Of a stretch of 64,000 bases of DNA, positions 9,210 to 48,758 are shown piece after piece; position 1 is the stretch's first letter, and the number at the start of each line of letters is the position of its first letter. The stretch lies in the NCBI RefSeq assembly GCF_900102725.1, contig NZ_FNJW01000008.1:2330501-2394500 (forward strand), in the 5' to 3' direction. A program made the translations under genes and the position numbers. The DNA is from Carnobacterium viridans. Its GTDB lineage: Bacteria; Bacillota; Bacilli; Lactobacillales; Carnobacteriaceae. The notes under the pieces were generated by a model, which ran no database searches, was not told the origin of the DNA, and worked only from the letters and a program-made list of their open reading frames with translations.

Positions 9210-9764
9210 ATGAAAATAAACAAGAAAATCATTTCTGGTATTATTGCGCTTATTCTTTTCTTTACAGGATCATTTGTTATTGACCAACAGCAAGAAACAC
9301 CTAGTACAGTAGCAGAGAATCAAACAGCTATTGAATTGGTAAGAACAATTGACGGAGATACAATCGTCTTTGCTGAAGATGGTGAAGAAAAAAAGTTGCG
9401 GTTATTGCTGATTGACACTCCAGAAAGTAGCACGACAAAAACGGGTTCTGCACAGCCATATGGTAAAGAAGCAAAAGATTTTTTAACGAATTATTTAGAA
9501 GGAAAAAAATTATCGATAGAATATGATCCTTCTCATGAAAAATTAGATGCCTATGATCGTGTATTGGCTTATCTTTACGCAGATGGAGAACTGATACAAG
9601 AAGTGATGGTTGAAAAAGGACTAGCACGTGTAGGGTATGAAAATGGAGATGAGCTTTATTTGAATGAACTTGAAGAAGCAGAGCAAGAAGCAGAAGTAGC
9701 AAATGTAAATATCTGGTCTGTTGATGGGTATGTTGGAGAATATGGATTTAATAAGCTAAAATGA
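9210..9764 (+). CDS. Thermonuclease-family (SNase-like) protein, secreted or lipid-proximal
   Basis: 184-residue protein with an N-terminal signal or anchor (basic start, hydrophobic residues about 7-24, no lipobox cysteine) and an SNase domain from about residue 42. Catalytic and calcium-binding residues of staphylococcal nuclease are present: VRTIDGDTI, RLLLIDTPES with the catalytic arginine, and YDRVLAYLY with the second arginine. It should cleave DNA and RNA outside the cell. RBS GGAGG precedes the ATG. The gene stands alone, followed directly by the 52-bp repeat array. Confidence 0.9.
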   Translation: MKINKKIISGIIALILFFTGSFVIDQQQETPSTVAENQTAIELVRTIDGDTIVFAEDGEEKKLRLLLIDTPESSTTKTGSAQPYGKEAKDFLTNYLEGKKLSIEYDPSHEKLDAYDRVLAYLYADGELIQEVMVEKGLARVGYENGDELYLNELEEAEQEAEVANVNIWSVDGYVGEYGFNKLK

Positions 9765-9823
9765 TGTTGATACCCATAAATTTTAGTTTAGTTTGGTTTA
9801 TCTGTAGGGATTACTGTATGCTT

Positions 9824-10262
9824 GAGTACCATATTCTGTATTTGATTGCACCTATATGGTAGGCAAAGGGTGTTTAAGTACAGTAAGTTGTATTTGATTA
9901 TATCCATATGGTAGGCATAAAGTGTTTGAGTACCGTAAGCTGAATTTGAGTACATCCATATGGCACGTAAAGGGTGTCTGAGTACCATAAGCTACATTTG
10001 AGTATACCCATATAGCAGGCAAAGTATGTTTAAGTACCATAAGCTACATTTGAATACATCCATATGGCAAGCAAAGTGTGTTTAAGTACCGTAAGCTACA
10101 TTTGAGTACATCCATATAGTAGGCAAAGTATGCTTGAGTACCATATTTTGCATTTGAGTATATCCATATGGCACGCAAAGTATGTTTAAGTACCGTAAGC
10201 TACATTTGAATACATCCATATGGTACGTAAAGTATCCTTATGCTTACCATAAGATTCATTTG
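9824..10262. repeat. Array of eight 52-bp tandem repeats plus decayed ends
   Basis: Eight units start at 9824, 9876, 9928, 9980, 10032, 10084, 10136 and 10188, each exactly 52 bp, with a degenerate ninth copy from 10240 and a partial copy before 9824. Each unit has two parts: RAGTACCRTAAGCTACATTT (20 bp) and a 32-bp part beginning GAGTACATCCATATGG. Both parts start with an AGTAC-like word and end in TTT, and the second contains the palindrome CCATATGG or a close variant. Units differ by substitutions only, not by length. Since 52 is not divisible by 3, all frames rotate, so coding is unlikely. It fills most of the 717-bp gap between the nuclease gene and prfC. Confidence 0.97.
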
Positions 10263-10481: not shown

Positions 10482-12065
10482 ATGGAAAGCTATTTGAAAG
10501 ATGAAGTAGAGTCACGAAAAACATTTGCAATTATTTCCCATCCGGATGCAGGTAAAACGACCATCACAGAACAATTATTGTTATTTGGTGGAGCAATTCG
10601 TCAAGCTGGTACGGTCAAAGGGAAAAAATCTGGGAAATTTGCTAAATCAGATTGGATGGAAATAGAAAAGCAACGTGGGATTTCTGTAACCAGCTCTGTG
10701 ATGCAGTTTGATTATAAAGACAAAAGAATCAATATTTTAGATACACCAGGACACGAGGACTTTTCTGAAGATACGTATCGTACATTGATGGCCGTTGATA
10801 GTGCAGTGATGGTTATTGACAGTGCAAAAGGTATTGAGCCTCAAACAAAAAAACTATTTAAAGTTTGTCGTATGCGTGGCATTCCAATTTTCACATTCAT
10901 CAATAAATTGGACCGTGATGGAAGAGAACCACTTGATTTATTAGAAGAATTGGAAGAAGTATTGGAGATTGATTCTTATCCAATGAATTGGCCTATCGGT
11001 ATGGGAAAAGGTCTTTTAGGTCTTTATGATAACTATAACAAGACAATTGAAGTGCATCGTCCTGAAATTAATGGTTTAAATGGACAAAAAGTCATCAAAT
11101 TGAATAAAGATGGAGAAATCGAAGGTGATCATCCACTTAAAGATTCTAGTTTATATACTCAAGCTTTAGAGGACATTGAATTGTTGAATGAAGCAGGTAA
11201 TGAATTTTCCGAAGAAAAAATTGCTGCTGGAAAATTAACACCTGTATTCTTTGGATCAGCATTGACCAATTTTGGAGTAGAAACATTCTTAAATACGTTT
11301 ATTAATTTTGCGCCAAGTCCAACAGCTCATACTGCAACGGATGGTGAAAAAATTGAACCGACGACAAATGAATTTTCTGGTTTTATATTTAAAATCCAAG
11401 CTAATATGAATCCTGCCCATCGAGATCGAATTGCTTTTGTGCGTATTTGTTCAGGGATTTTTGATCGTGGAATTGATGTTACTTTAGCGAGAACAAATAA
11501 AAAAATGAAACTATCAAATTCAACCCAGTTTATGGCCGAAACACGTGAAGTTGTGCAACACGCTGTAGCAGGGGATATTATTGGACTTTATGATACTGGG
11601 AATTTCCAAATAGGGGATACGATTTTTGAAGGTAAATTAAATGTAGAATATGAAAAACTTCCTCAATTTACTCCAGAAATGTTCATGAAAGTTCAAGCTA
11701 AAAATGTTATGAAACAAAAATCATTCCATAAAGGTGTACAACAATTGGTTCAAGAAGGAGCTATTCAATTGTACAAAACATTCCATACGGAAGATTATAT
11801 TGTTGGAGCAGTTGGACAATTGCAATTTGAAGTTTTTCAATACCGAATGTTAAATGAATACAATTCTGAAATTATTATGTCACCAATGGGGAATAAAATT
11901 GCGCGTTGGATCAAACCAGAAGATTTGGATGAGAATATGTCTTCCAGCCGTAATTTATTGGTGCGTGACCGTTTTGGCAATCCATTGTTCTTATTTGAAA
12001 ATCAATTTGCGCTTCGTTGGTTTGCAGATAAATATCCGGATGTTGAGTTAACATCATTACTATAA
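10482..12065 (+). CDS. prfC: Peptide chain release factor 3
   Basis: 527-residue translational GTPase that removes RF1 or RF2 from the ribosome after termination. G1 is [13 protein letters not shown] (about residues 20-32), the switch I threonine segment is [11 protein letters not shown]3 is [11 protein letters not shown], and G4 is INKLDRDG. The length and the RF3-specific C-terminus ([12 protein letters not shown]) separate it from EF-G. GAGGGA lies six bases before the ATG. It is a single-gene unit between the repeat array and a terminator. Confidence 0.96.
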
Positions 12066-47426: not shown

Positions 47427-48758
47427 TTGGGGAATACTGAAATGTATGTAAGTCTAGATATTGGAACCACTTCAATAAAAGTAGTTGTAGCTGAATATAT
47501 AAACGGACAAATGAATATTATTGGAGTAGGCAATGAAAAGTCTGAAGGCTTAAACCGTGGGATTATCGTAGATATTGATAAAACGGTACAATCAATTAAC
47601 AAAGCCATTAAACAAGCAGAGAAAAAAGCAAATGTAACTATTCGTAACGTTATTGTAGGCATTCCAAGTACATCTGTCGAAATAGAAGCGTGTCATGGAA
47701 TGGTAGCAGTATCAGGAGAAAATCGTGAGATTACTGAAGTAGACGTCCAAAATGTTTTGGCAGCTGCAATGGTAAAATCAGTTCCTCCGGAAAGAGAAAT
47801 CTTAACCATTTTACCGGAAGAATTTATTGTTGATGGATTTGATGGCATCAAAGATCCGAGAGGAATGATTGGCGTCCGTTTGGAAATGCATGCTATTATG
47901 TTAACTGGACCAAAAACTATCTTACATAACACGAAACGTTGTGTAGAAAAAGCTGGTTTACAAATTCAAAATATCGTCTTGCAGTCTTTGGCAGCAAGCA
48001 GTGTAGCAATGTCTAGCGGCGAAAGAGATTTTGGCACAATCTTGCTTGATTTGGGAGGCGGACAAACAACGGCTTCAGTTATGCATGATCACCAGTTGAA
48101 ATACACGTATGTAAATCAAGAGGGTGGAGATTACGTAACAAAAGATATCTCGGTTGTCTTAAACACCACCATTGAAAGTGCCGAAAGAATAAAACGTGAT
48201 TATGGATATGCTTTGCCAGAAGAAACTTCTCCAGAAGAAACTTTTCCAATAGAAGTGATTGGCAAAAGCCAACCGGTAAAAATTGATGAACGTTATTTGT
48301 CAGAGATTATTGAAGCTCGGATGGTTCAAATTTTTGAAAAAGTGAAATTTGAATTAGACAAGGTTGGAGCAAGAGCTTTACCTGGTGGAATGATTTTAAC
48401 GGGTGGTGCCGCAGCCTTACCTGGTGCAATAGAGCTTGCTGAAGATACGTTTGAAATTCCAGTTAAACTTTATATTCCTCATCAAATGGGTCTGCGTTAT
48501 CCAGCATTTACTACAGGTATAGGTTTGATTCAATATGAAGCTAACCTAGATGATATTCATCAAATTATGAAAGAATATCAATTAGGTGTTACAAGGTCAG
48601 AAGATTCTTCTTACAATGTTAAATCAGAAAATTTTCCAGAAAATGATGAACACAGTTTTTTAGAATATGAAAAAGAAAAACCCCTTAAAAAAGAAAAGAA
48701 ACAAGAAGACAAGTGGAGCAATAAGGCGAAAAACTTTATCTCAAATTTCTTTGATTAA
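47427..48758 (+). CDS. ftsA: Cell division protein FtsA
   Basis: 443-residue actin-like protein that tethers FtsZ to the membrane. The phosphate 1 motif is VSLDIGTTSIKVVVAE, and ILLDLGGGQTTASV is phosphate 2; GMILTGGAAALPG is the adenosine motif. The C-terminus KWSNKAKNFISNFFD is the amphipathic membrane-targeting helix. TTG at 47427 is chosen because AGGAGG is ten bases upstream and the resulting N-terminus matches homologues; the ATG at 47442 is an alternative. It precedes ftsZ by 36 bases. Confidence 0.96.
   Translation: MGNTEMYVSLDIGTTSIKVVVAEYINGQMNIIGVGNEKSEGLNRGIIVDIDKTVQSINKAIKQAEKKANVTIRNVIVGIPSTSVEIEACHGMVAVSGENREITEVDVQNVLAAAMVKSVPPEREILTILPEEFIVDGFDGIKDPRGMIGVRLEMHAIMLTGPKTILHNTKRCVEKAGLQIQNIVLQSLAASSVAMSSGERDFGTILLDLGGGQTTASVMHDHQLKYTYVNQEGGDYVTKDISVVLNTTIESAERIKRDYGYALPEETSPEETFPIEVIGKSQPVKIDERYLSEIIEARMVQIFEKVKFELDKVGARALPGGMILTGGAAALPGAIELAEDTFEIPVKLYIPHQMGLRYPAFTTGIGLIQYEANLDDIHQIMKEYQLGVTRSEDSSYNVKSENFPENDEHSFLEYEKEKPLKKEKKQEDKWSNKAKNFISNFFD

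Follow-up and report, generated by a model that had tools for sequence, protein, structure and literature searches.

In plasmid iterons and the partition sites parS and sopC, binding sites for a protein recur at regular intervals, often next to the gene that encodes this protein, and REP repeats are imperfect hairpins that are processed as single strands. The abstract of PMC2817692 describes the REP/RAYT system as a gene flanked by alternating, regularly spaced, and dispersed repeats, in which repeat abundance correlates with the cognate gene and gene and repeat coevolve. For the NERD domain, the excerpted text of a 2022 paper (PMC9040797) states that, to its authors' knowledge, no experiments had addressed what the domain actually does until their own, and excerpts of PMC10910872 mention NERD solely in the legend of a figure, as a putative auxiliary gene of CRISPR. 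Within the open-access literature in PMC, we found no report linking NERD to repeat arrays and nothing relevant on the repeat described here.

That repeat forms an array in a window of 64,000 nucleotides (the whole stretch of DNA that was analyzed). Judged from sequence, the array is probably a dispersed member of a nuclease-repeat pair, which would work like REP/RAYT with another enzyme and with double-stranded sites phased on one face of the helix. The features of the locus are given below in window coordinates.

9210 to 9764, plus strand: SNase-like gene (PF00565), a neighbor of the array; the extra segment starts within its last codons
9754 to 10330, no strand: extra segment of ~577 bp relative to the nearest relative (G002); ends approximate
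9826 to 10226, no strand: type-1 array, in which the 10-bp site STACCRTAWG occurs 16 times, alternating between plus and minus strands, starts 27 and then 25 bp apart, period 52
9836 to 9852, no strand: first 17-bp linker, between a direct site and the following inverted site
9853 to 9887, no strand: first 35-bp core, composed of an inverted site, KYAAA-N5-TTTRM, and a direct site
10482 to 12065, plus strand: neighboring gene, which we take to be prfC; used as the control gene

The initial annotation had described eight tandem units of 52 bp with no indels, and this description stands. TRF places the array at 9840 to 10223 (period 52, 7.4 copies, 80% matches, 0% indels, score 446), and a count of full units gives eight, spanning 9826 to 10241. 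Scores at longer periods are 521 (period 104) and 556 (period 156), whereas the best other repeat within the window scores only 59, the score of a 15-bp short tandem repeat at 48216 to 48254. Self-match of the array is 0.76 at a lag of 52, compared to 0.21 to 0.29 at lags of 50, 51, 53, and 54. Each unit had been read as two AGTAC-led parts, a division that we replace: the repeating element is a single 10-bp site in alternating orientation, and a scan of the window with the pattern STACYRTAWG finds 16 such sites from 9826 to 10226. The second AGTAC (TTTGAGTAC) sits in the linker and is absent from the other arrays read, while the palindrome CCATATGG does occur in the units but is the inverted site CATAYGGTAS plus the preceding C. 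Further 35-bp cores follow the first every 52 bp, starting at 9905, 9957, 10009, 10061, 10113, and 10165. The decayed flanking copies that had been reported are present as partial sites at 9811 and 10244, but they are out of register. As far as seen there is, as claimed, no gene inside the array; minus-strand ORFs of 62 and 66 amino acids resemble chance frames of a 52-bp repeat. Between 9600 and 10600, scans returned 4 promoter-like sites (5.5 expected) and no terminators.

The closest relative by PrfC (99% identity) is G002, and in the alignment with it no clear target duplication was seen around the segment inserted in the window. The site before prfC lacks an array in all eight relatives looked at, so the window array is private to its own genome among nine, and insertion in this lineage would be simpler than repeated loss. 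The SNase-like gene was considered as the partner of the array and dropped: it precedes prfC without an array in seven of the eight relatives and was not seen there in G013.

Used as a query against its own genome (G000), the array DNA found five places in four loci, and 11 type-1 arrays, possibly more, were read there. All 11 are intergenic when array-overlapping ORFs under ~100 amino acids are treated as spurious, and the genes around them are convergent, divergent, or in tandem. The search pattern, a pair of inverted sites separated by 17 bp and allowed at most two mismatches, has 35 matches in this genome (control, 0), 7 in G003 (control, 2), 5 in G005 (control, 0), and 1 in G001 (control, 1), with no match in G002 and G004; one own-genome match, at 1927335, was discarded as chance because it lies inside an ORF. 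Among genome contigs the site pattern matched two stretches, one from Bartonella bacilliformis and one from Desemzia sp. RIT 804, the latter a real array that is the same DNA as G013. Viral contigs had no match.

Two of the type-1 arrays in the own genome flank an ORF (G000:C8:613895-614818), encoding ~305 amino acids, in which Pfam finds only the NERD domain (PF08378; E = 3.2e-14, 53.8 bits against a gathering cutoff of 22.1). A sequence-only unit model, made from 47 units of G000, G003, G005, G017, and G013 with G012 as an independent positive, was run against 18 genomes of the family. It matched at least 90 units in G000, at least 34 in G003, at least 25 in G005, at least 61 in G017, at least 41 in G012, and at least 10 in G013, and none in the other twelve at E ≤ 0.01, with at most 150 candidates scored in each genome. 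Exactly the same six genomes carry an ortholog of the NERD gene (58 to 100% identity); in the other twelve, identity to the protein reaches 39% at best, and four of them lack any relative. Six genomes drawn at random from 18 would coincide in this way with a probability of 1 in 18,564, a figure that treats related genomes as independent draws. The occurrence of both states (arrays with NERD, and neither) within each of three genera counts more.

The type-1 NERD gene adjoins glpK (named by eye) in all six genomes, and this synteny extends over three genera. Strict site pairs, defined as 17 of 20 letters at the right spacing (shuffles give ~0), lie on both sides of the gene in G000 (14 and 6), G005 (5 and 5), and G013 (4 and 1) and on the 3′ side only in G003 (2), with none beside the gene in G012 and G017. 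Weaker matches to the unit model lie beside it in G012 (3′, E = 2e-5; 5′, 0.037), G017 (0.005 to 0.018), and G003 (5′, 0.065); the noise level can be gauged from an unrelated NERD locus, where the model matches at E = 0.032. The neighborhood link between gene and array is firm for four of the six genomes, and the genome-level link for all six; the NERD protein of G012 and G017 may have changed its site. In G005 the type-1 gene has an in-frame stop, yet the arrays remain. In G002 the glpK side retains 92% DNA identity, and the NERD gene and both arrays are replaced by 12.8 kb; this replacement (L249:5584-18140) contains a sortase-like gene, a 3309-amino-acid repeat-rich surface protein, and a regulator-like gene (names by eye).

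A second type of array, beside a NERD paralog in G001, is dispersed too and occurs in all six genomes of the genus (14 matches in G001, 21 in G004, 7 in G002, 6 in G003, and 5 each in G000 and G005). In each of G000, G001, and G002, the matching NERD gene is followed directly on its 3′ side by a type-2 array; in G004 no array adjoins the type-2 gene. No type-2 NERD gene was found among the NERD matches of G003 and G005, judged by protein starts, so these arrays can outlive or lack the gene. Where the period was measured (20 of the 58 matches), it is 51 in 12 of 12 arrays from G000, G002, G003, and G005 and 52 in 8 of 8 from G001 and G004. At L225:3778-4460 (G000:C8, 3′ of a type-2 NERD gene), a 51-bp array whose 13 units each span 17 codons overlaps a 204-amino-acid open frame, which could be misannotated as a repeat protein. 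An array of G326 has just two weak further places in its genome; given this near lack of spread, dispersal may be local to the Carnobacteriaceae.

Arrays beside NERD genes recur across the Bacilli. After 12 of 77 loci were dropped as the same place repeated, 65 distinct NERD loci among the matches listed, mostly the best per genome, were scanned with TRF over 1,500-bp flanks. Tandem arrays with a period of at least 18 lie beside 45 of the 65 at a score of ≥200 and beside 50 at ≥100, with no array at the latter threshold for 15, although relatedness among the loci means that these counts are not independent. At the control gene prfC, available in 30 of those genomes, the corresponding counts are 0 and 1, compared to 26 and 29 for the NERD loci of the same 30. 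The sole control array (L183:1299-1416, in G555) is 21-bp phased with variable linkers and could represent, in dispersed form, the 21/42-bp kind that adjoins the NERD genes of that group. Outside the order (n = 28), arrays lie on the 3′ side only at 23 loci, on the 5′ side only at 2, on both at 2, and on neither at 1; the same categories number 5, 3, 1, and 7 in the order outside the family (n = 16) and 4, 9, 1, and 7 in the family (n = 21), where loci without arrays include type-1 loci whose decayed sites TRF misses. Array motifs differ between NERD paralogs. Long tandem periods (226 to 344 bp) also occur beside NERD genes (L078, L079, L081, L085, L088, L090, L131, L134, and L234) and may be higher-order units of phased sites, and 226-bp-period arrays with another motif lie 5′ of the type-1 gene in G017 (L228:1349-2494) and G012 (L229:3302-4015).

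The helical phasing proposed in the initial annotation extends beyond the window, as arrays flanking NERD genes have periods near integer multiples of 10.3 to 10.4 bp. The shortest strong periods of 43 flank arrays are 52 (17 arrays), 51 (4), 53 (2), 41 (3), 42 (3), and 20 (2), followed by 62, 63, 82, 83, 103 (4), 102, 104 (2), and 15 (1). Their circular resultant is 0.90 at 10.3 bp, with a phase near zero, and 0.89 at 10.4 bp, falling to 0.53 at 9.5 bp and 0.51 at 11.5 bp; in this test the arrays are partly related, the pitch was scanned, and periods of 226 to 344 bp were left out. A 50-bp array at L226 fits helical multiples less well. Of 30 array consensi, 28 come from NERD genes and the other two are the window array and A1801; 13 of them contain inverted pairs of 10-mers matching at 9 or more of 10 positions, where shuffles would give 0.35; the window consensus itself has such a pair at only 8 of 10 positions (P = 0.17).

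These results favor the reading of the window array as a helically phased protein-binding array, but not the nucleoid or partition protein that had been suggested as its binder; the arrays track a NERD protein encoded elsewhere in the genome. An unrelated chromosomal protein (a nucleoid, partition, or segregation factor) could still be imagined at arrays to which NERD genes are merely near: alternating sites at helical spacing would suit a cooperative binder, a chromosomal role would fit both the intergenic position of all 11 own-genome arrays and the failure to find NERD relatives on plasmids and phages, and two type-1 genes have no strict sites beside them. We consider this unlikely, because different NERD paralogs go with different motifs, none of the other eight genomes looked at has the window array, and searches of close relatives, one of them with a 99% identical PrfC, found no arrays, which makes an essential role improbable.

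The geometry of the sites bears on an origin by slippage. Across 20 type-1 arrays, with sites matching at 9 or more of 10 positions, 54 pairs run from a direct to an inverted site, of which 44 are spaced by 27, 7 by 28, 2 by 26, and 1 by 36; of 49 pairs that run from an inverted to a direct site, 45 are spaced by 25; the search pattern fixed the spacing of 27 for some arrays and the spacing of 25 for none. Identity between type-1 arrays is 0.70 for sites, 0.47 for the inner 15 bases, and 0.33 for linkers, compared to 0.29 for shuffled linkers. Within homogeneous arrays (window, A1801, and Desemzia) linker identity reaches 0.79 to 0.89, with the window array at 0.79, and within others linkers are nearly unrelated (0.31 in A614, 0.33 in G5_510, and 0.39 in A1642). 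It follows that copy number grows by duplication in some arrays and that site and spacing outlast the linkers.

A neutral minisatellite, arising from slippage and unequal recombination, would explain the similar linkers of the window array and the difference of 4 versus 8 units between near-identical orthologs. It would also suit one orthologous pair in which linkers are better kept than sites: between A1310 and G5_510 (G005), two linkers are identical at 17 of 17 positions and several site positions differ, a result that selection on sites would not predict. We nevertheless regard this origin as quite improbable, because the same site and spacing recur despite nearly unrelated linkers (A614 and A1642), the same periods are common to different motifs beside different NERD genes, and prfC loci lack arrays. 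Freely varying copy number with units of unequal length, or an unconserved palindrome, had been named in advance as pointing to slippage; copy number does vary, with 4 versus 8 units between orthologs of one locus, and none of the eight relatives looked at has the window array, but unit length holds and the site is conserved even between arrays with unrelated linkers. The A1310 place is rearranged in G002 and G003, so the loss of its array cannot be dated. A near-identical block is found in two species (L032:3100-3460 and L036:2910-3480) with 4 versus 8 array units, suggesting recent exchange; it comes after a short SDR-like frame extending into the array.

A transcribed and processed RNA element, whether a hairpin array, a 3′ untranslated region, or a CRISPR-like guide array, is also hardly probable. 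Arrays do lie on the 3′ side at 25 of the 28 NERD loci outside the order (23 only there and 2 on both sides), linkers vary between units in some arrays, and the window array folds at a z score of −2.29, with 1 of 100 shuffles as stable, as inverted sites would cause. Against this, covariation between arms across 47 units stays within shuffles (410 of 500 reach the score inside the core and 111 of 500 across the linker), periods follow the turn of B-DNA, arrays also lie between divergent gene starts, and the single Rfam match is below its gathering score. The sites vary independently, as separate protein sites would. Since site and spacing persist where linkers are unrelated and the arms show no covariation, neither plain slippage nor an RNA stem accounts for the arrays.

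Aligned NERD proteins share G41E42, D74, E87xK89, and four zinc-ribbon cysteines, all invariant or nearly so; D74 and K89 are invariant, and E87 is invariant in 16 of 16 proteins and conserved at ≥90% in a wider set of 16. By these residues (D, ExK), the protein appears to retain an intact PD-(D/E)xK-like set of the catalytic type. Its C-terminal part is helical-looking, and a comparison with solved structures gave weak zinc-ribbon-type matches only (best E = 0.046). Of 295 genomes from the order and 299 from the class, 59 and 54, respectively, hold members of the NERD profile at E ≤ 1e-20, often several per genome. NERD paralogs split into two ORFs or with an in-frame stop occur at L227 (G000:C8:1101395-1102266), L237 (G002), and L076 (G005), with intact relatives elsewhere. 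A tblastn search with one sequence found no NERD relative among 72,556 plasmid records and 50,697 phage records, nor did a pattern-based scan of the IMG/VR viral contigs find any; distant members could be missed in these searches. A defense or toxin-like nuclease, titrated or restrained by its own arrays, is very improbable: it would draw on weak PADLOC matches to MkoA and PglW, a subcutoff NCBIfam match to a defense kinase, and a rare defense system that encodes a NERD endonuclease (excerpts of PMC12458937), but those searches of plasmids, phages, and IMG/VR found no match, the type-1 gene is syntenic across three genera, and titration needs no large set of dispersed arrays.

We return to the nuclease-repeat pair. 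The association of the NERD protein with the arrays, together with the symmetry and phasing of the site, suggests that this protein recognizes the 10-bp site on double-stranded DNA. As the sites recur at whole numbers of helical turns, several NERD molecules could then be aligned along the same face of the helix. The nuclease activity to which the conserved residues point may act at the arrays directly or by provoking recombination and repair, and its action would keep unit length and site intact, expand or contract copy number, and let array segments appear at new intergenic places. Such maintenance and spread would be in keeping with sites that hold their spacing, with a type-2 period that is uniform across each genome, and with an insertion in the window that is private to its genome, and would parallel the supposed role of RAYT for REP/BIME. 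We infer that the pair may also benefit its host. More tentatively, nuclease-repeat pairs of this kind may be widespread on the chromosomes of Bacilli, with each NERD-zinc-ribbon protein owning a private, helically phased array that it keeps uniform in period and spreads; this would be a counterpart of REP/RAYT on a different enzyme fold and would provide the first concrete DNA target for NERD. If true, it would be a repeat-maintaining system with a nontransposase enzyme, whose arrays come and go between sister species. NERD domains are widespread, and if cognate arrays adjoin their genes, DNA targets could be read from genomes.

Set beside known systems, the pair resembles several in part. 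Staphylococcal SmdA, which is NERD-like, shares a partial NERD domain; in the excerpted text of PMC9040797, however, it is a cell-division protein of the membrane in which several of the conserved NERD residues are missing, and repeats are not mentioned. CRISPR and other interspaced arrays, as described in excerpts of PMC10910872, likewise have a constant unit length, variable linkers (here in some arrays), and a nuclease-domain gene nearby, whereas the arrays described here have 17-bp linkers, inverted sites inside the unit, and dispersed copies; no cas genes were recognized among ORF starts read by eye at array and NERD loci. With iterons and partition sites the NERD arrays share regularly spaced sites that often adjoin the gene of the (here putative) binding protein, but they are chromosomal, occupy many dispersed loci, and were not detected in close relatives; among the ORFs read by eye at array and NERD loci, none beside them was recognized as a Rep or ParA/ParB gene.

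The closest likeness is to REP/RAYT. Of the features given in the abstract of PMC2817692, flanking of the gene, alternation, regular spacing, dispersal, abundance correlation, and coevolution are seen or partly seen for NERD arrays. Type-1 genes have their own strict sites on both sides in three of six genomes, on one side in one, and on neither in two, and 50 of the 65 NERD loci have some array at a TRF score of ≥100, which was checked to be the gene's own repeat for a few. Abundance follows the gene for type 1 (six of six genomes with it versus 0 of 12 without), and type-2 arrays also occur in two genomes without the gene. The differences lie in the enzyme, a NERD (PD-(D/E)xK-type) protein with a zinc ribbon rather than a tyrosine (Y1/HUH) transposase, Pfam finding NERD PF08378 only; in the repeat, a helically phased array without stem covariation rather than an imperfect hairpin; and in host and scale, with cases in Bacilli and about a dozen arrays compared to more than 100 copies. 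NERD arrays fall outside REP/RAYT by their enzyme and the structure of their repeats, and not by their logic.
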